In this document: in pieces, positions 16,402-24,036 of the stretch
Layout of the letters: each line of letters opens with the position of its first letter
How positions within the stretch are numbered: position 1 is the first letter of the stretch
Assembly (NCBI GenBank): GCA_007119035.1
Contig: SKQL01000026.1
Span: 1-41,071 of the forward strand
Direction of reading: 5' to 3'
Length of the DNA: 41,071 bases
Origin: Nitriliruptorales bacterium
GTDB lineage: Bacteria > Actinomycetota > Nitriliruptoria > Euzebyales > Egibacteraceae
The notes under the pieces: generated by a model
What the model was told of the DNA's origin: nothing
Databases searched by the model: none
The model's input: only the letters and a program-made list of their open reading frames with translations
Translations under genes and position numbers: made by a program

Positions 16402-17604
16402 GTGAGCGTGCAACCGGAGGGGGGATCGAACCGCCCCGTTCTCACCACGGCGGTCGTGACGGGCGCGTTGGTCGTGTCCGTCATGCCGCCGTTCCTCGCG
16501 GGCGCGTCTGGGGTGTTCCTGCGCGCTGACCTCGGATTCGACGAGGCCGGGCTCGGTATGGCCATCTCCGCGTTCTTCGGGGCCTTCGCGCTCACCGCGG
16601 TGTTCGGCAGCAGGTTGTCCGAGCGTCTGGGTGCGGGTCGTGCGCTGACCCTGTCCGCCTGTGGGAGTGCCAGCGTTCTCCTCGCCATCGCGGCGCTGGC
16701 GAGCAACCTGACCCATCTGGTCCTGCTGCTCGCGCTGGGCGGTGTCCTCAACGGCGTGGCCGAGCCCGCGACCAACCTCGCCATGGCGAGGGCGTTCGCG
16801 GAGCGCCAAGGATTCATGTTCGGGGTGAAGCAGTCAGCGCCGCCTTTCGTGACGTTGCTCGCGGGTGCTTCCGTGCCGCTCATCGCCCTCACGGTGGGGT
16901 GGCGCTGGGCGTTCGTGGGAGGTGCGATGCTCGCCCTCCTGGTCGGCATCCTGATGCCGTCGGGCCTGGCGCCTCCCCGACCCCGGAGCCGCACGGGCCG
17001 GATCCGCGAGGGAGATGCGGCGACCGCTCCGCTGGTGGCGATGGCGGTCGGCGCGGGCGCGGGTACCGCGGCGGCCGTCTCGCTCGGCTCGTTCCTGGTG
17101 GAGTCCGCTGTCGCGGGCGGCATCGACGTCAGCATGGCCGGTTGGCTGCTGGCGGTCGCAAGCGTGGCCGGGATCGGGGCGCGTCTGCTGGTCGGGTGGT
17201 TGGCGGACCGGCGACAGGGCATCGCCCTCTACGTCGTTGCGCTCATGTTGTTTGCCGGCGCGGGAGGCTACGCCATGATGGCCACAGGAAGCACCGCGCT
17301 GCTGCCCCTGGGGACCTTGATCGCGTACGCCTGCGGTTGGGGGTGGGTGGGCCTGCTCATGTACGCCATCGCCCGCCTCAACCCGAACGCACCCGGAGCA
17401 GCGACTGGGATCGTCCTCGCGGGCGCGGCCGTGGGGGCGGCAGTGGGCCCCTTCGCGTTCGGGTACGTCGTGTCCCTCGGCTCTTTCGGCGCGGCTTGGG
17501 CCATGGCCGCGACCTCCGCCCTGCTCTCGTCAGTGCTCGTGGTGGGAGCGAGGATGTGGTTGGTACGGGACCGGGACCGGAGGGCCTACGCCGCGGGGGC
17601 CTGA
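16402..17604 (+). CDS. MFS transporter
   Basis: 400 residues with about twelve hydrophobic helices in two halves separated by a basic loop near 190-205 (RPRSRTGRIREGD). The start of the first half has the layout AGLGMAISAFFGAFALTAVFGSRLSERLGAGRAL, the usual loop 2-3 motif of the major facilitator superfamily (G-x-L-x-[ED]-R-x-G-x-G-R). FMFGVKQSAPPFVTLLAG resembles the helix 5 region of NarK/OFA-like and drug:H+ antiporter members. Substrate unknown. GTG start follows the tRNA-Gln gene; convergent with tRNA-Glu. Confidence 0.85.
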   Translation: MSVQPEGGSNRPVLTTAVVTGALVVSVMPPFLAGASGVFLRADLGFDEAGLGMAISAFFGAFALTAVFGSRLSERLGAGRALTLSACGSASVLLAIAALASNLTHLVLLLALGGVLNGVAEPATNLAMARAFAERQGFMFGVKQSAPPFVTLLAGASVPLIALTVGWRWAFVGGAMLALLVGILMPSGLAPPRPRSRTGRIREGDAATAPLVAMAVGAGAGTAAAVSLGSFLVESAVAGGIDVSMAGWLLAVASVAGIGARLLVGWLADRRQGIALYVVALMLFAGAGGYAMMATGSTALLPLGTLIAYACGWGWVGLLMYAIARLNPNAPGAATGIVLAGAAVGAAVGPFAFGYVVSLGSFGAAWAMAATSALLSSVLVVGARMWLVRDRDRRAYAAGA

Positions 17605-17622
17605 GGCCCTCCGTCGCATCAC

Positions 17623-17644
17623 CCGCGTGAAGCTGCGAACGCGG
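17623..17644. terminator. Hairpin between convergent MFS and tRNA-Glu genes
   Basis: CCGCGT (17623-17628) pairs perfectly with ACGCGG (17639-17644) around a ten-base loop. It lies 19 bases after the MFS stop and ten bases beyond the 3' end of tRNA-Glu on the other strand. No U-run on either side. Confidence 0.38.
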
Positions 17645-17653
17645 CGTATGTCG

Positions 17654-17726
17654 CACCCCCGACGGGATTCGAACCCGTGTCGCCGCCGTGAGAGGGCGGT
17701 ATCCTAGGCCGCTAGACGACGGGGGC
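17654..17726 (-). tRNA. tRNA-Glu (anticodon CTC)
   Basis: Acceptor GCCCCCG pairs with CGGGGGT, ending in a G1-U72 wobble. The anticodon arm is CCGCC-CTCTCAC-GGCGG with CTC at 34-36, and the T-loop is TTCGAAT within ACGGG...CCCGT. Discriminator G, no CCA encoded. It reads toward the gltX/tRNA-Gln group, so the synthetase and its two cognate tRNAs lie within 3 kb. Confidence 0.94.
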
Positions 17727-17820
17727 AGGTGGCCGATCAGGCCGTCGTGGCGCACGTGGACAAAACGAACGCGCAGAGCTGAGGATAGCGAGGCCTCCGG
17801 GGCGTCGCAAACGCAGTCGC

Positions 17821-19344
17821 TCAAGGCCGGCGGCGGCTGCGCGGTAGCCACGGACGGCGCCGTTGCATCAGCGCGCGCACGGTTGCGTCCTGCTCGGTCG
17901 CCAGGCCCACGTGCTTGTCCTTCGGCGTATCGATGCGCTGGGACTCGTAGATCCCCCGGTGGGCCGAGAAGACGTAGCTGACCACACAGCCCACCGCGAG
18001 GTAGACGAAGGCCTCGGAGCCGAACAACTCGACGCCCATGACCGTGCAGGCGAGCGGGGTGTTCGTGGCGCCGGCGAAGACCGCGACGAGACCGACCGCG
18101 GCGAGCAGCTCCGGGGGCACGCCGAGCGGCGTGGCGAGGGCCGCACCCAGCGTCGCCCCGATGACGAACAGCGGCGTCACCTCGCCCCCCTGGAATCCCG
18201 CGCCCACGGTCAGCGTGGTGAACACGATCTTGAGGAGGAACGCTCCCGCGATCACGTCGCCCTCGTAGGAGCGCTCGATCAACGGCAGGGAGAGCCCGAG
18301 GTAGTCCGTGGTTCCCACCAGCAGGGTGAGGGCGATGACGATCAGGCCGCCGACCAGCGGTCGTGCTGGCGACCAGCGGATCGCGATGCGGTACATGCGC
18401 CGGAACCCGTACAGCATCTCGCTGAACAAGATGCTCGCGAGTGCGAAGGCGAGGCCGGCCAGCGCGACCAGGCCGATGAGGGCCGGGTCCAGAGGAATGC
18501 CCTCGAGGGCGACGGTCGGCGTAGGGGCATGCGGCAGCCCGGTCACGACGAAGATCGCGTCGGCCACGCGGTCGCCGACGATCGCGGCGGTGAGCGCGGG
18601 CACGAGCGCCTCGTAGCGCATCCGGCCGACGGACTGCACTTCCAGGGCGAACACGGTCCCCGCGAGGGGGACTCCGAAGACCGAGCCGAAGCCGCCCGCT
18701 ATGGAGGCGATCAGCAGGATCCGCCGGTCCTCCGGCCCGAGACGCAAGGCGCGGGAGAACGTGTCGCCCAGGCTGCTCGCCATCTGTATGCCAGTGCCCT
18801 CACGGCCGGCCGAGCCGCCGAAGAGGTGGGTTACCACGGTTCCGACCAGGACGAAGGGCGCCATCCTCAATGGCACGCCCTCCCGTGGAGTTGGCGCACG
18901 GAGGTGGTCCGCGAGGCCGTGGACCTCGTCGAGGATGAGGTTGTTGCCCTCCGCAGCGCGCCCACCGCGGTAGTGGTAGGCGAGCCCGATGGCCACGCCG
19001 GCCAGCGGCAGGAGGCCCAGCAGCCAGATATTGGCCTCCCGGGTCTCCGTCGCGAGCGCCAGGAGGACGAGGAAGGTCGCCGAGGCGACGCCCGCGAGGA
19101 TACCCACCGCGCCGCCGAGGACCGACCACTTCACGAGATGGTTGAGGAGCACGACCTGCTCCCTGCCCTCTACGCGGAGGAGCCCCCGCACGTAGCCGTA
19201 CGCCCAGGCAGGCAGGGCACGCCAGCCACGACCGGGGTCCCCCGCAGAGCCGGGGACCTCCCCCTCGAGGGGATGGTCACACCAGACACAGCGGCCTGGA
19301 GGGGTGGGTTGCTCGCACTCGGGGCAATCCAATTGGAGGGACAA
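17821..19344 (-). CDS. CLC anion transporter with fluoride (CLC-F) signatures and N-terminal zinc ribbon
   Basis: 507 residues. The CLC core carries GNNLI (133-137) in place of the GSGIP chloride motif, GGSAGREGTGIQM with gating glutamate E182, and GFQGGEVTP with E388. This combination is the pattern of fluoride/proton antiporters (CLC-F/EriC-F), where the Asn of GNN and the Glu of GGEVTP are functionally important; fluoride export is therefore likely. Before the first helix is a short CxxC-x8-CxxC ribbon (C7, C10, C19, C22), unusual for this family. Start is TTG 19344, and no ATG or GTG lies in frame close by. I saw no fluoride riboswitch upstream. Downstream of amiS on the same strand, with 67 bases between. 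Confidence 0.82.
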   Translation of the reverse strand: MSLQLDCPECEQPTPPGRCVWCDHPLEGEVPGSAGDPGRGWRALPAWAYGYVRGLLRVEGREQVVLLNHLVKWSVLGGAVGILAGVASATFLVLLALATETREANIWLLGLLPLAGVAIGLAYHYRGGRAAEGNNLILDEVHGLADHLRAPTPREGVPLRMAPFVLVGTVVTHLFGGSAGREGTGIQMASSLGDTFSRALRLGPEDRRILLIASIAGGFGSVFGVPLAGTVFALEVQSVGRMRYEALVPALTAAIVGDRVADAIFVVTGLPHAPTPTVALEGIPLDPALIGLVALAGLAFALASILFSEMLYGFRRMYRIAIRWSPARPLVGGLIVIALTLLVGTTDYLGLSLPLIERSYEGDVIAGAFLLKIVFTTLTVGAGFQGGEVTPLFVIGATLGAALATPLGVPPELLAAVGLVAVFAGATNTPLACTVMGVELFGSEAFVYLAVGCVVSYVFSAHRGIYESQRIDTPKDKHVGLATEQDATVRALMQRRRPWLPRSRRRP

Positions 19345-19411
19345 TCCAATGGTCCGATGGGGCCGCCGTTCGCACGGGCCTGTCCGACCCTTGCCACAGC
19401 CTACACCGCGA

Positions 19412-19915
19412 TCAGATGTAGCCGTTGAGGACGAGGAAGCCGGGGAGCCAAGCGGTGACGATCCCCAATGCCGTCGTCACGTAGGCGGCGAGGGTCCCGA
19501 TGGGCTTCTTGAGGGCGAGCAACAGGAAGTAGAGGAACCACAACACGGCCCACGCCGCCCAGTTGAGCCCGAGCCAGGTCTCGAAGACCGTTTCCGCGCC
19601 CTCGAGCGTGATGATCGATACGGGGACAGCGGTGATCGCCACGAACAGGCAGTACCAGCCGAGCCCCGAGCCCTCGGCCTTGGCGAACTGGTTGTAGGCC
19701 ACCCACAGGTAGGTGAACGCGAAGAGGAGGACGTAGGCGGCGAGTTGGATCGAGGCGAGGTCTTCCTGTGCCACCGCGAACACCGCGACCATCAGGCCGA
19801 CGAGACCCGTGAAGACGTTGAGGATGGCGATCTCGCGGTCCTCGATCTTTCCGAGGAGCCAGATGCCGTTCACGAACAGGACCGCCCCGACGTACAGGAG
19901 AACTAGACCGAGCAC
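19412..19915 (-). CDS. amiS: AmiS/UreI-family amide or urea channel
   Basis: A 167-residue inner-membrane protein with six predicted helices. MLGLVLLYVGAVLFVNGIWLLG, LNVFTGLVGLMVAV, FAFTYLWVAYNQFAKAEGSGLGWYCLFVAI and WFLYFLLLALKK follow the AmiS/UreI pattern, including the conserved LFVNG and FTYLW elements. Family members are proton-gated urea channels or short-chain amide channels. Beside a formamidase/acetamidase gene it most likely admits the amide substrate. GTG start with GGAGG upstream. Separated from fmdA by 82 bases holding a strong hairpin. Confidence 0.9.
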   Translation of the reverse strand: MLGLVLLYVGAVLFVNGIWLLGKIEDREIAILNVFTGLVGLMVAVFAVAQEDLASIQLAAYVLLFAFTYLWVAYNQFAKAEGSGLGWYCLFVAITAVPVSIITLEGAETVFETWLGLNWAAWAVLWFLYFLLLALKKPIGTLAAYVTTALGIVTAWLPGFLVLNGYI

Positions 19916-19954
19916 TGTGCACCACCTCCACCGAGCGTCGCCCCCACGGGGAAT

Positions 19955-19986
19955 GGGGTGGGAGCCGCATCTTGGCCTCCCACCCC
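19955..19986 (-). other. Strong intercistronic hairpin between fmdA and amiS
   Basis: A perfect ten-base-pair stem (arm GGGGTGGGAG on this strand and its complement) with a 12-base loop, lying between the formamidase stop and the amiS start. There is no U-run, so it could be a leaky terminator or an mRNA-processing or stability element that lowers channel expression relative to the enzyme. Confidence 0.6.
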
Positions 19987-19997
19987 CGCCGCGAGCC

Positions 19998-21251
19998 TCA
20001 CGAGGTCACTGCGACCTGGCCGCGGTTCCTGTGTTCGGGCCCGTCCGCATTGGGTCGGACATCGGTGTCGAAGATCTCCGTGGGGATGTACAACGAGCAG
20101 CAGGCGTTCGGGAGGTCCACCACGGCACTGACCCTGCCTTCGATCGGTGCGGTGCCGATGATGAAGTATGCCTGCTCGCCCGTGTAGCCGAACTTCTTGA
20201 GGTACTCGATGGCGTTCAGGCAGGCACGTCGATACGCGAGCGTCGCGTCCATGTACTCCTGCCTGTTCGTCTCGTGCTCGACGGATACGCCGCAGAACGC
20301 GATGAACTCCGAGTAGCGCGGCTCGACGTTGCCGGGCATGAAGATCGGGTTGGTCGTGACGCCATACTTCTCCATGCCCCCCTTGATGAGGTCGACGCCG
20401 AAGTCGATGTAGCCGCCCATCTCAATGGCCCCGCAGAAGGTGATCTCCCCATCCCCCTGGCTGAAGTGGAGGTCGCCCCCGGAGAACTTCGCCCCCGGCA
20501 CATGCACCGGGTACAGGACGCGTGCCCCCCTGGTGAAGTTCTTGATGTCGTGGTTGCCGCCGTTCTCCCTGGCGGGGATGGTCCGGGCCCCTTCCCGGGC
20601 GACCTTGTTGAAGTCGGCGGAGCCAGCCTCGAGCGTCCCCGCGAGGGCCTCGTTCTCGTCGGGCGGCAGCGCGAAAGGAGGAACGCGGTCGGGCTCTCGC
20701 GAGATCAGTTCGCGCTCGCGCTCGTTCCAGCTGTCGAGCAGCTGTTGTGAGGGAGCGGTACCGAAGAGGCCGGGGTGGGTGACGCCTGTGTACCGCACGC
20801 CCGGGATGTGACGGGACGAGGCCTGCTGTCCACGGAAGTCCCAAATGGCCTTGTAGGCGTCAGGGAAGACGTCGGTCAGGAATCCTCCGCCGTTGACCTT
20901 GGAGAAGATCCCGGTGTATCCCCACCCTTGTCCTGGCAGGTTGCCTACCGACTGCGGTATCGGACCCAGATCGAGGATGTCGATGACGAGCAGGTCCCCT
21001 GGCTCCGCGCCGCGGACGCCGATGGGGCCGCTCAGCACATGGCAGCGCAGCAACGCCATGTCCCGGATGTCGTTCGCCGAGTCGTCGTTGACGACCTGGC
21101 CGTCGGTCCAGTCGAGGCACTCGACCCGGAACTCGTCGCCGGGGGAGACCTCGGAGGCGATCGGGATGTCAGGATGCCAGCGGTTGTGGCCTGGGACGTC
21201 TTGGTCGAACATCGAGCGTGAGTAGTCGATCTGGAACGCTACGTCTGGCAT
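19998..21251 (-). CDS. fmdA: Formamidase/acetamidase (FmdA/AmdA family)
   Basis: Hydrolyses formamide or another short amide to ammonia and the acid. The 417-residue sequence covers the full FmdA_AmdA family: HNRWHPDIPIASEVSPGDEF, DWTDGQVVNDDSANDIRD, HVLSGPIGVRGAEPGDLLVIDI, GRTIPARENGGNHDIKN-like RTIPARENGGNHDIKN, VPGAKFSGGDLHFSQGDGEI and FCGAIEMGGYIDFGVDL. The N-terminal part matches formamidase of Methylophilus type, which forms homotrimers. The ATG has AGAGGAG seven bases upstream. It lies 30 bases behind fmdB and ahead of amiS, and is likely induced by its substrate through the AmiC-like and MarR proteins encoded nearby. Confidence 0.92.
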   Translation of the reverse strand: MPDVAFQIDYSRSMFDQDVPGHNRWHPDIPIASEVSPGDEFRVECLDWTDGQVVNDDSANDIRDMALLRCHVLSGPIGVRGAEPGDLLVIDILDLGPIPQSVGNLPGQGWGYTGIFSKVNGGGFLTDVFPDAYKAIWDFRGQQASSRHIPGVRYTGVTHPGLFGTAPSQQLLDSWNERERELISREPDRVPPFALPPDENEALAGTLEAGSADFNKVAREGARTIPARENGGNHDIKNFTRGARVLYPVHVPGAKFSGGDLHFSQGDGEITFCGAIEMGGYIDFGVDLIKGGMEKYGVTTNPIFMPGNVEPRYSEFIAFCGVSVEHETNRQEYMDATLAYRRACLNAIEYLKKFGYTGEQAYFIIGTAPIEGRVSAVVDLPNACCSLYIPTEIFDTDVRPNADGPEHRNRGQVAVTS

Positions 21252-21281
21252 ATCCGTACTCCTCTGTGCGGCTATCTCGCT

Positions 21282-21566
21282 TCACCACGTCGGCAGCCCT
21301 CTCGGCTTGGGATCCCCCTTTCGTGCTGCGGTAGGTCGCTGCGGCCTTGGGACCTCGTTCACCACGTCCGGTTGCTCGCTGGACCTCTCCGCGCGGGTGA
21401 GGGCGTCCGCGAGCGGGCGGGGGGTCCGGTTCACGTGGGGCGCGGAGTAGGAGCGACGCGCCTCGGCTCCGCACTGGACACAGGTGTCCGACGTCGCGGC
21501 GGTTCCCATCCTTCGGGTCAGCTCGAAGATCCCGCATCGTGGGCAGCGGTACCGATAGACAGCCAC
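21282..21566 (-). CDS. fmdB: FmdB-family zinc ribbon protein
   Basis: 94 residues. The N-terminal ribbon AVYRYRCPRCGIFELTRRMGTAATSDTCVQCG has C8/C11 and C29/C32, the CxxC...CxxC pattern of FmdB, and a polar, Pro/Arg-rich tail follows. In Methylophilus FmdB was proposed as a regulator of formamidase; its exact role is unsettled. GTG 21566 is preferred because GAGGGGAA precedes it and the family begins at this point, although the frame is open to 21686. First gene after the promoter at 21659-21686. Confidence 0.85.
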   Translation of the reverse strand: MAVYRYRCPRCGIFELTRRMGTAATSDTCVQCGAEARRSYSAPHVNRTPRPLADALTRAERSSEQPDVVNEVPRPQRPTAARKGDPKPRGLPTW

Positions 21567-21643
21567 TTCCCCTCGCCTCCTGACGCGCAAGCTCCGCGAG
21601 TAAGGGCCTCGCCTCGTCGCGACTTGTCGTCGTCGACGGGCTA

Positions 21644-21678
21644 TATCTCTGTTACGGAATAGTACTGAAATGGAGATA
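21644..21678. promoter_or_regulatory. 35-nt dyad over the -10 region, candidate operator
   Basis: TATCTC (21644-21649) and GAGATA (21673-21678) are perfect inverted arms. Further matching pairs inside (TT/AA at 21652-21653 and 21669-21670, plus isolated pairs) share the same centre at 21661, within the -10 box. A dimeric repressor such as the MarR protein encoded 1.3 kb away would block RNA polymerase here. The binding protein is inferred. Confidence 0.5.
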
Positions 21679-21686
21679 ACTGTCAA
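21659..21686 (-). promoter_or_regulatory. Sigma-70 promoter of fmdB-fmdA-amiS
   Basis: On the minus strand TTGACA (21686-21681, perfect -35) is followed after 16 bases by TACTAT (21664-21659, four of six -10 matches). The surrounding 70 bases are markedly AT-richer than the rest of the window. Transcription would start near 21652, leaving about 85 bases of leader before fmdB. It lies between the stop of the AmiC-like gene and fmdB. Confidence 0.68.
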
Positions 21687-21716
21687 GGGGGTATGAGGGT
21701 CTCGACGGGAGGGACG

Positions 21717-22841
21717 TCAGAGCCTGGTGACGACGTCGAACATGGTCCCGTCGGCACGGGCGAGGTGTATGTCCTGGACGAGGTGGTGGTTCCTGAGGTG
21801 GACGGACCCGCGGGGCCCGTCGTAGCCCACGGTCGCGTCGGTGTGGAGCAGGTCGGCCACACGAAGGGAGCTCACCTTGCGGGTCAGTGCGGCGAGTAGC
21901 CGCAGTGCCTCGTAGCAAGACTCGCCCATGCTGTTGAGCGGAGGCGCGTCCGCACCGAATCGGGCCGCGTACCGACCGACGAGGTCGAGGGCGCTCGGGG
22001 TGGTGAGCGCCTCGAAGTACGCCGCTGCGGAATAGAGATCCCGCGTGGCCTCGAACCCACTCGCGAGCAGCATGTTCTCGTCCATAAGCGGGCTGAGGCG
22101 GATCATGCTCCGGTCGAGCCCGGCTGCGGCGTACGCACGATTGAAGTGGACCGCGTCCTGCCCGACGAGCAGCATCAGCACACCGTCGGCTCGGCTGCGA
22201 GCGAGCCGGTGCAGGACCGCTCCGAAATTCTCCTGCCCGAGTGGAACGTACATCTCATCGACGATCTCCGTGCCGAGGCGCCGCGTCAGCGCATGGACAG
22301 CGGCCATCGACCCTCGTGGCCAGAGGTAGTCGTCCCCCACGACAGCCCATCGTCGGATGCCCAGCTCGCGGGCGAGCCACCCCATCGTCGGCACGATCTG
22401 ACGGTCGGGGGTCTCACCTGTCAGGAAGACGCCCTCTGTTCGCTCGCCACCCTCGTACAGGGCGCTGTACACGTAGGGCAGCTGTCCCTGCAGATGGGCT
22501 GCCACGGCCCTGCGGACGTGCGAGAGATGCCAGCCAGCGACCACGTCGATGGCCTCCCAGCGCACGAGCCGGTCGACGCGGTCCACGACGTCCTCGGGGT
22601 GGCCGGCTCCGTCGATCGGCACGAGATGGACCTCACGCCCGAGCAGCCCGCCCTCCGCGTTGATCTCCTCCGCGGCGAGCACGCCGCACGCCAGGCACGA
22701 TGACCCGAACATCCCCGCAGAGCCGTGCATCGGGATCAGAAGGCCCACGTTGATGGCCGCTCGCACACGTGTGCGGCTGGTCGGAGGTGCGCGGGACAGG
22801 GCCTCCGAGCGGTACACTGAGTTCCCGGTCAGATTCCACAT
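21717..22841 (-). CDS. AmiC-like ligand-binding protein (periplasmic-binding-protein fold, no signal peptide)
   Basis: 374 residues with the type I periplasmic binding fold of the UrtA/AmiC/LivJ group: INVGLLIPMHGSAGMFG, CGVLAAEEINAEGGLLGREVHLVPIDGAG, VDVVAGWHLSHVRRAVAAHL, RRWAVVGDDYLWPRGS and GRYAARFGADAPPLNSMGESCYEALRLL. The N-terminus (MWNLTGNSVYRSEALSRAPP) is polar, with no signal peptide or lipobox, so the protein should stay in the cytoplasm as a sensor, as AmiC of Pseudomonas and mycobacteria does, rather than feed an ABC transporter; no ABC genes are present. ATG 22841 lacks a good Shine-Dalgarno, and a start up to 30 codons later is possible. Divergent from marR. Confidence 0.82.
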   Translation of the reverse strand: MWNLTGNSVYRSEALSRAPPTSRTRVRAAINVGLLIPMHGSAGMFGSSCLACGVLAAEEINAEGGLLGREVHLVPIDGAGHPEDVVDRVDRLVRWEAIDVVAGWHLSHVRRAVAAHLQGQLPYVYSALYEGGERTEGVFLTGETPDRQIVPTMGWLARELGIRRWAVVGDDYLWPRGSMAAVHALTRRLGTEIVDEMYVPLGQENFGAVLHRLARSRADGVLMLLVGQDAVHFNRAYAAAGLDRSMIRLSPLMDENMLLASGFEATRDLYSAAAYFEALTTPSALDLVGRYAARFGADAPPLNSMGESCYEALRLLAALTRKVSSLRVADLLHTDATVGYDGPRGSVHLRNHHLVQDIHLARADGTMFDVVTRL

Positions 22842-22911
22842 TGCCGGATGATCCCACCGACGGCCGACCCTGAACTCGTTGTCTGGTTCGGATACTTGGG
22901 GACCTGCACGC

Positions 22912-23406
22912 ATGATCGTCACCGATGCCACGAACGTCTTGCGTATCTTAGGAGACGTGGACCGCTTCCTGGTGAGATTCTTGGATCCCGTGTTGCACGA
23001 CATGGGACTCGCGCGCGAGCATTGGCAGGTCCTCCGCCTCCTCGACGGTGGGCGGGGCCACCCGATGGGTGAGATAGCCCGGTCACTGCAACTTCCCAGT
23101 GCGACCGCCACCCGACTAGTGGACCTTCTCGTCACCAACATGTTCGCCTATCGCCGCAGCGATCCGCTCGACAGGCGGCGGGTGCTGGTTCAACTCTCCG
23201 ACACGGGCAGCGAGCGGCTGCGTCGGATCGAGGAGGCGCTGCGGGGGAGCACCTCGGCGGGGCTGACCGGGTTGAGTGCCGACGAGCGGAAGCGGCTGGT
23301 GGAGCTTTTCGACAGGTTCCTCGAGGCAAGCGCGTCCGGGGACGAGCAAGCAAGCAAAGTGTCCATTCGGAGTCAGGCGCCGACGTCTAGCGGAGCCCGC
23401 GACTAA
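22912..23406 (+). CDS. MarR-family transcriptional regulator
   Basis: A 164-residue winged-helix regulator. LREHWQVLRLLDGG-like LAREHWQVLRLLDGGRGHPMGEIARSLQLPSATATRLVDLLVTNMFAYRRSDPLDRRRVLVQLSDTG gives helix 3, the recognition helix and the wing with the D-x-R-DRR signature. Helices at both ends form the dimer interface. Divergent from the AmiC-like gene across 70 bases, in the same neighbourhood as an amidase and AmiS. In Mycobacterium smegmatis a MarR-type protein represses the acetamidase operon, and the same role is likely here. ATG 22912 has GGGGA ten bases upstream; a TTG at 22879 is the alternative. Confidence 0.85.
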   Translation: MIVTDATNVLRILGDVDRFLVRFLDPVLHDMGLAREHWQVLRLLDGGRGHPMGEIARSLQLPSATATRLVDLLVTNMFAYRRSDPLDRRRVLVQLSDTGSERLRRIEEALRGSTSAGLTGLSADERKRLVELFDRFLEASASGDEQASKVSIRSQAPTSSGARD

Positions 23407-23422
23407 CTGGTGGCCTCGCGGG
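23396..23422. terminator. Bidirectional hairpin at the marR convergent junction
   Basis: CCCGCGA (23396-23402) pairs perfectly with TCGCGGG (23416-23422). The 13-base loop contains the overlapping CTAA in which marR and the opposite-strand gene both stop, so it can serve both transcripts. Confidence 0.5.
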
Positions 23423-23819
23423 ACAGGAGGCTCGAGCGGACGGGCCTGGCGAGCAGCAGTGCGAGGCCGATACCCCCTACGAGGATGCCGGCGATGCTGC
23501 CGACGCCGCGGAAGGGGACGGCGGCGGAGGTGAGAGTCAGGGCGAAGACGACGAGTCCGAGCGCCCAGGCCCATGGACGTCGTCGAGCGAGGCCCACCAG
23601 AGCGACGAGGTAGAGGATCGCGCCGACCGTGAAGCCGGCAGCGGCCGGCGGGATCGCCGCGCCACCGCCCGGACCGAGGGCGCTGAAGAGGGGTATCTGC
23701 ACGCCCGCATGGGCGATGGCCATGAGGACGGAGCCGATCAACCCCACGGCGGCGACGACGACCACCGCTCGTAGTGCTCGACTGCTGGTCCGACCGCCGT
23801 GAGCGTCCATGCCCGCCAT
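23403..23819 (-). CDS. Small integral membrane protein of unknown function
   Basis: 138 residues. A short polar start (MAGMDAHGGRTSSRALR) is followed by four hydrophobic segments at about 17-37, 58-77, 84-100 and 106-124. RRRPWAWALG between helices 2 and 3 is a common feature of DUF-type four-helix proteins. No catalytic residues stand out. AGGAG precedes the ATG. It lies ten bases behind the cold-shock-like gene and is probably the last gene of the cofC transcript. The stop overlaps that of marR by four bases. Confidence 0.62.
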   Translation of the reverse strand: MAGMDAHGGRTSSRALRAVVVVAAVGLIGSVLMAIAHAGVQIPLFSALGPGGGAAIPPAAAGFTVGAILYLVALVGLARRRPWAWALGLVVFALTLTSAAVPFRGVGSIAGILVGGIGLALLLARPVRSSLLSREATS

Positions 23820-23829
23820 CGTAGGGCTC

Positions 23830-24036
23830 CTAGAAGCTGACGAGATCGAGTCTCGTGATCCGCTTCGTGTCGTCCGCGCCCTCGATCTCGAGACGCAGGC
23901 GTTGCCCCAGTCGCAACTCGCGGAGCCCGGAGGCGAGGAATGTCGACGCCTCGATGGGCAGTTCCTCCTGCGAGTCCAGCAGGAGCGTCCCCGTGGCGGT
24001 GTCGGGGTCGAAGCTCTTCACGGTGCCCTGCGCCAT
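23830..24036 (-). CDS. Divergent cold-shock-domain-like protein
   Basis: 68 residues. MAQGTVKSFDPDTATGTLLLDSQEELPIEASTFL... aligns with the beta-barrel of CspA (MAQGTVKWFN...GFGFI...), and LRLGQRLRLEIEGADDTKRITRLDL matches its last strands. The Trp and the aromatic RNP1/RNP2 residues that stack on RNA are replaced (KSFDPD, GTLLLD), so nucleic-acid binding is probably weak or different. GAGGAGG precedes the ATG. It lies 16 bases behind cofC. Confidence 0.7.
   Translation of the reverse strand: MAQGTVKSFDPDTATGTLLLDSQEELPIEASTFLASGLRELRLGQRLRLEIEGADDTKRITRLDLVSF

Follow-up and report, generated by a model that had tools for sequence, protein, structure and literature searches.

What kind of system is encoded where an amide channel, a formamidase, a zinc-ribbon protein, an AmiC-like binding protein and a divergent MarR-type regulator lie side by side? 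The question is raised by positions 19,412 to 23,406 of a 41,071-nucleotide stretch, here called the window, which is contig SKQL01000026.1 of a Nitriliruptorales bacterium (source assembly of 140 contigs, 69% complete). An earlier note on this DNA had described a compact amide-utilisation island that parallels the Mycobacterium smegmatis acetamidase locus and adds FmdB from the Methylophilus formamidase system. We conclude that the locus is very probably an operon for formamide and acetamide utilisation, induced by amides and of the same type as the M. smegmatis acetamidase operon, whose five kinds of genes it carries in a different order. In such an operon, AmiS would admit small amides, from which FmdA would release ammonium and the acid by hydrolysis. 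MarR would act as repressor at the fmdB promoter and at the divergent amiC/marR region. The AmiC-like protein, cytosolic, would bind amide and lift repression, most likely by contacting MarR, in analogy to the action of AmiC on AmiR in Pseudomonas, and FmdB, a zinc-ribbon partner of FmdA in the position of AmiD, would assist the enzyme. The comparisons below show the gene content, orthology, synteny and the conserved linkages of MarR with AmiC and of FmdB with FmdA; the regulatory steps we infer from M. smegmatis phenotypes and from the AmiC/AmiR precedent.

The locus has the gene content of the mycobacterial acetamidase operon

Profile matches confirmed all five genes; their identities and the role in amide utilisation that had been proposed from the sequence alone both hold. 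The reverse strand carries four of them. fmdA (19998-21251) encodes a formamidase/acetamidase of the FmdA_AmdA family that scored 644.8 bits against the formamidase equivalog NF045496 (cut-off 500) and matched the solved formamidase 2wkn at 2.2e-154. amiS (19412-19915) encodes an AmiS/UreI-family amide/urea channel (PF02293, 1.5e-56, 191.4 bits). fmdB (21282-21566, GTG start) encodes an FmdA-linked CxxC...CxxC zinc ribbon that lies above the curated cut-offs of both TIGR02605 (38.2 bits, cut-off 31.3) and Zn_ribbon_8 (38.6 bits, cut-off 34.4). The amiC-like gene (21717-22817) encodes a leaderless protein of the type I periplasmic-binding fold (Peripla_BP_6, 1.1e-76), the presumptive amide sensor. 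On the forward strand stands marR (22912-23406), encoding a MarR-family protein and predicted repressor (MarR_2, 1.1e-8, 35.6 bits, cut-off 27).

Of the 65 other genomes searched within the class, two (G014 and G041) contain an AmiC of 61-63% identity. Because the close AmiC, marR, fmdB and fmdA stay together in both, the arrangement goes beyond chance. FmdA is 85-86% identical to its counterparts in these genomes, amiS is 78% identical to that of G014, and marR shares 50-51% identity with the closest relatives, L100 and L101. G041 has the order of the window, with marR divergent and then amiC-fmdB-fmdA, where its contig stops. In G014, amiC and marR also diverge, a major facilitator superfamily gene separates marR from fmdB, and fmdB-fmdA-amiS follow.

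We then compared the window with mycobacteria. Six mycobacterial loci (L139, L158-L162) are ordered amiC / marR-fmdB-amiS-fmdA, with amiC divergent, and the entire 3.9-kb locus is shared at 88% by genomes G413 and G145. The EmbA proteins of these two genomes scored best against chain 7bvc_A, which we take to be from M. smegmatis (2337 bits for G413 and 2321 for G145; next chain, 1656 and 1646). Since neither is identical to that chain, both genomes appear to represent sister species of M. smegmatis and not M. smegmatis itself. M. smegmatis was not met among the genomes of the G066 group (118, then 396 of them), nor among 198 relatives of G413, where only sister genomes appeared; in the plasmid collection, no place covered 80% of the 3.9-kb query.

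In the passages of the literature available, the acetamidase promoter system has the order amiC, amiA, amiD, amiS (PMC11005228) and is used with amiE (PMC5861769). AmiC and AmiD are described there as positive and AmiA as negative regulators (PMC12719403), and the M. smegmatis formamidase MSMEG_4367 and the FmdB-family protein of the next locus number, MSMEG_4368, are both reported up in nitrogen limitation (PMC4617892). The mycobacterial gene set matches amiC, amiA, amiD, amiS and amiE one to one, which makes FmdB the likely counterpart of AmiD and MarR that of AmiA, by synteny in relatives and not by comparison with the M. smegmatis sequence itself. Thus the window holds an FmdA_AmdA-family amidase, an AmiC, an AmiS and, by synteny, a MarR-type AmiA and a zinc-ribbon AmiD. 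The parallel drawn in the earlier note therefore holds, and its claims of novelty fall: the zinc ribbon already occupies the AmiD position of the six mycobacterial loci and is no new addition, and the five-gene set, also present in close relatives of M. smegmatis, is already known from the published mycobacterial operon that it matches (again with AmiD equated to FmdB by synteny). Since relatives rearrange the same gene set, we file the window with the acetamidase-type operons by content and not by order.

The mycobacterial operon differs from the window in layout, with amiC alone divergent where the window has amiC, fmdB, fmdA and amiS on one strand and marR alone divergent, and in lacking the CLC-F gene that follows amiS in the window. 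Pseudomonas aeruginosa amiEBCRS likewise has a cytosolic amide sensor of periplasmic-binding fold adjoining an amidase, but it uses the ANTAR antiterminator AmiR and a nitrilase-type AmiE, whereas the window has MarR, an FmdA-family enzyme and changes at sensor positions 83 and 152. The Rhodococcus nitrile hydratase and amidase regulators, in which (on plasmid pNit) an AmiC-like protein stands beside MarR and an amidase or beside ArsR/SmtB and nitrile hydratase, serve different enzymes, and no zinc ribbon is listed in these two pNit stretches. The fmdA-fmdB clusters with urtABCDE of the Methylophilus/Pseudomonas type also have an FmdB zinc ribbon adjoining FmdA; in L192 and L194, however, an ABC transporter replaces AmiS, the FmdB tail reads RPWMISH and no AmiC/MarR pair is listed beside fmdA.

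The AmiC-like protein is leaderless, a probable sensor, and travels with MarR

The solved P. aeruginosa AmiC (1pea) matched the AmiC-like protein at 1.5e-25. Its N-terminus peaks at a Kyte-Doolittle hydropathy of only 0.65, whereas two UrtA proteins reach 1.86 and 1.97. In four AmiC-like proteins from other records the values are 0.59-1.39, and the stretch there runs into the core. This lack of a signal-peptide-like N-terminus fits the cytosolic location assigned in the earlier note. The protein thus combines the features of the AmiC sensor family: a type I periplasmic-binding fold, no export signal, and an adjoining amidase and DNA-binding partner. We aligned 68 AmiC sequences (67 loci and the window) at positions 83, 85, 104, 150 and 152 of P. 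aeruginosa AmiC, which we take to line the amide pocket. The equivalents of Tyr104 and Tyr150 are kept in all 68 rows and that of Ser85 in 67, the remaining row being a gap; Tyr83 is replaced by His in 66 of 68 and Tyr152 by Trp in 68 of 68. No ANTAR domain was found among the nine window proteins scanned; where AmiC/AmiR antitermination has AmiR, the partner here is MarR.

How general is this pairing? The 67 AmiC loci comprise 65 from the genome-collection scan, all in records titled as actinobacteria, plus L006 and L007. Of these, 65 (all but L079 and L093) have a MarR-type gene no more than 2 kb from AmiC; it is divergent in 56, downstream on the opposite strand in 7 and on the same strand in 2; more distant MarR matches in the same loci number only 7. 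The enzymes vary. FmdA lies near AmiC in 19 of the 67 loci, AmiS without FmdA in 13, and FmdA, FmdB and AmiS together within 6 kb in 10, all lower bounds because contig ends truncate many of the loci and L006 is only 4 kb long. Other neighbours are a nitrilase-type amidase, an AAA protein that is presumably AmiB-like, and an Amidase-family enzyme. On the Rhodococcus rhodochrous plasmid pNit, one AmiC-like gene stands beside an aliphatic amidase and a MarR gene; in another stretch (L183:6963-11432) an ArsR/SmtB regulator and an AmiC-like protein lie upstream of the nitrile hydratase genes. Thus the AmiC-like sensor swaps DNA-binding partners. NhhC/NhhD and NhlC/NhlD of R. rhodochrous J1 are, we assume, such sensor/regulator pairs; open-licence papers yielded nothing useful on these regulators or on AmiC beside MarR in Rhodococcus. 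The AmiC/MarR pair is therefore an old regulatory cassette that stands beside formamidase, nitrilase-type or other amidases, and the pair in the window is an instance of an established theme, a sensor of periplasmic-binding type whose DNA-binding partner can be exchanged. The earlier note had spoken of two-layer regulation. Both an AmiC-like sensor and a MarR are indeed present, but they are better read as one circuit in which an amide sensor acts with a MarR repressor.

Two further arrangements were seen in such neighbourhoods. In a Blastococcus sp. metagenome-assembled genome (L049), one AmiC/MarR pair lies between two FmdB/FmdA cassettes. One or two tubulin-like proteins (Tubulin Pfam; "tubulin-like" is the annotation on pNit) occur in actinobacterial amidase/AmiC/MarR neighbourhoods (L038, L040, L045, L052, L059, L061, L064, L090, L097 and L180:9954-13534), and a protein of about 100 amino acids often sits between paired ones.

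By its position, the 94-bp gap between marR and amiC (22818-22911) is presumed to hold the operator and promoters. We scanned 52 divergent marR-amiC regions for inverted repeats with 5-base arms. The top repeat, TTTCT-N3-AGAAA, occurred in 6 regions compared with shuffle maxima of 1-2, and it is a perfect palindrome in the gaps of all six related mycobacterial loci. In three of the six, TCTG-N2-CAGA lies about 8 bases beyond it. TTTCT-N3-AGAAA is thus a candidate AmiA/MarR operator in the mycobacterial loci.

FmdB accompanies FmdA and has a characteristic C-terminal end

We asked how closely FmdB follows FmdA, using an FmdB profile built from AmiC-linked loci. The longer loci contain 63 FmdA genes that scored above 400 bits, and 60 of these have an FmdB match no more than 3 kb away, in 54 cases on the same strand as FmdA; this count omits L001-L034, the short match loci L104-L136, and L006, L007, L170, L171, L173 and L177. 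Five formamidase stretches come from named plasmids outside the mycobacterial group. In three of them (Paracoccus, Methylobacterium and Paraburkholderia), fmdA and a zinc ribbon are direct neighbours or have one gene between them; for the other two, from Rubrobacter and Halobaculum, none is listed within the flanks.

Most of the 60 FmdA-linked proteins share a tail. Fifty-five have LP followed by two final residues, 52 have LPR followed by one, and 44 have LPRP (exceptions: L042, L046, L099, L100 and the second copy of L179), and FmdB of the window ends in LPTW. We read 12 of 19 FmdB-family matches from seven genomes. The six FmdA-linked proteins have Pro/Arg-rich tails, and the six unlinked ones have Ser-rich or Ser-Gly-Asp-rich tails, where unlinked means away from the FmdA genes found and G014 was not searched genome-wide for FmdA. 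Among proteobacterial FmdA-linked ribbons, L192 and L194 end in RPWMISH, and L191 ends in neither this motif nor LPRP/LPRW. Window FmdB is not a member of NF053663, the model of RPWMISH proteins: it scored 48.6 bits (cut-off 120) and only residues 1-72 match. Judged by sequence, FmdA-linked FmdB forms a subfamily marked by a conserved LPRP/LPRW ending, in contrast to the Ser-rich tails of its unlinked paralogues. The comparison links three things that carry separate names: the "regulatory" zinc ribbon FmdB, mycobacterial AmiD, and the AmiC/MarR pair found in amide and nitrile operons of actinobacteria. Open-licence papers gave no description of FmdB together with an AmiC/MarR pair. M. smegmatis, where the acetamidase promoter serves as an expression tool, offers a direct test of AmiD/FmdB function.

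The source assembly also holds a second FmdB-AmiS-FmdA cassette (L102:2292-4833, contig C126). Its FmdA is 64% identical, neither AmiC nor MarR is nearby, and it adjoins radical SAM, GCS2 and AstE/AspA-family genes.

A CLC-F-like gene follows amiS

On the same strand as amiS and 67 bp away lies clc (17821-19344), encoding a CLC-F-type anion transporter with an N-terminal CxxC pair. The nearest solved chain is the CLC-F protein 6d0j (1.2e-52, compared with 1.2e-7 for the next CLC kind, 3nd0). The protein contains EGNNLI and GREGT, in agreement with GNNLI/GREG(T,V), which we take to be the filter motif of CLC-F, and it thus has the features of a CLC-F fluoride/proton antiporter. L100, from a second genus (G014), has a 65% identical clc in the same position and strand after amiS. 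No other locus of the set has clc there, and the G041 contig ends before that position. An inherited single chromosomal site was considered as the cause of this linkage and is weakened because the flanking tRNA differs: Glu in the window, Pro in L100. A search for a fluoride riboswitch gave none in the window or L100 at the gathering score, nor up to an E value of 1 at 17000-24000 of the window; CLC-F genes need not all have one. By its placement, clc may be a sixth operon gene, co-transcribed in this lineage, in which case an amidase operon would include a gene for a CLC-F-like antiporter. Together with the FmdB tail, this gene is a lead of more interest than the novelty originally claimed for the island.

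Weighing the acetamidase-type operon against other explanations

Several observations weigh against the reading as an acetamidase-type operon. The equations of AmiA with MarR and of AmiD with FmdB rest on synteny in the sister genomes G413 and G145, and identity to the mycobacterial protein is only 35% for FmdB and 37% for MarR. The window order marR / amiC-fmdB-fmdA-amiS departs from the mycobacterial amiC / amiA-amiD-amiS-amiE. TTTCT-N3-AGAAA is absent from the window, no operator shared with other loci was found for it among the 52 regions, and we claim none there. Regulation and binding would have to carry over to this organism from other species, and the clc linkage is known from two genomes (n = 2). 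Could the locus instead be a new hybrid, in which an AmiC/MarR circuit like that of M. smegmatis was joined to FmdB from the Methylophilus formamidase system? The modules are separable, since FmdB stands beside FmdA without an adjoining AmiC/MarR pair in proteobacteria (L191, L192 and L194). However, all six mycobacterial amiC/marR...fmdA loci of that order already hold a zinc ribbon in the AmiD position, and the 60 of 63 linkage indicates that FmdB came with FmdA, so we consider a hybrid very improbable. Hardly any probability attaches to the AmiC-like protein serving an ABC transporter for urea or amides as its binding protein and not being a sensor. Its best NCBIfam matches are UrtA models and solved urea-binding proteins outscore AmiC for it, but the UrtA scores, 163.8 and 128.1 bits, are far below the cut-offs of 492.75 and 494.8. 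The protein lacks a signal-peptide-like N-terminus and urtBCDE neighbours, neither a permease nor an ATPase gene occurs from marR to clc, and the pairing with MarR is kept in 65 of 67 loci; we therefore rejected a UrtA-type subunit.

A further alternative concerns only the step assigned to FmdB, namely that FmdB itself is the transcriptional activator of the operon. In available passages, AmiD is termed a positive regulator (PMC12719403), as is fmdB for formamidase (PMC13209695). However, FmdB tracks FmdA whatever the regulator; it is a protein of about 94 amino acids with one zinc ribbon and no helix-turn-helix in the Pfam scan, and its conserved, clade-specific C-terminal end (LPRP/W or RPWMISH) suits a protein partner. 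These points leave room for a regulatory role that FmdB may have, and we hold the activator possible, at somewhat less than an even chance. Unlikely, in our estimate, is a joint reading in which FmdB/AmiD would be no transcription factor but a dedicated FmdA partner that docks its conserved extreme C-terminus on the enzyme, the "positive regulator" phenotype of AmiD would reflect enzyme maturation, and the operon in this lineage would export a product or toxic anion, either formate or the fluoride of fluorinated amides, through the CLC-F-like antiporter. We retain the acetamidase-type operon, with FmdB as a putative assistant of FmdA.

Gene starts and a candidate promoter

Comparison with L100 and L101 makes ATG 22912 a likelier start of marR than TTG 22879, and comparison with the two closest relatives favours GTG 22817 over the alternative ATG 22841 for the AmiC-like gene. 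A longer fmdB reading frame (to 21686) falls slightly below the Pfam cut-off. On the reverse strand before fmdB, a sigma-70-like promoter is suggested by a consensus match, TTGACA-16-TACTAT (21659-21686), found once in the sequence compared with 0.4 ± 0.6 times in shuffles. A TTGAC box after amiC is present in L101 too.

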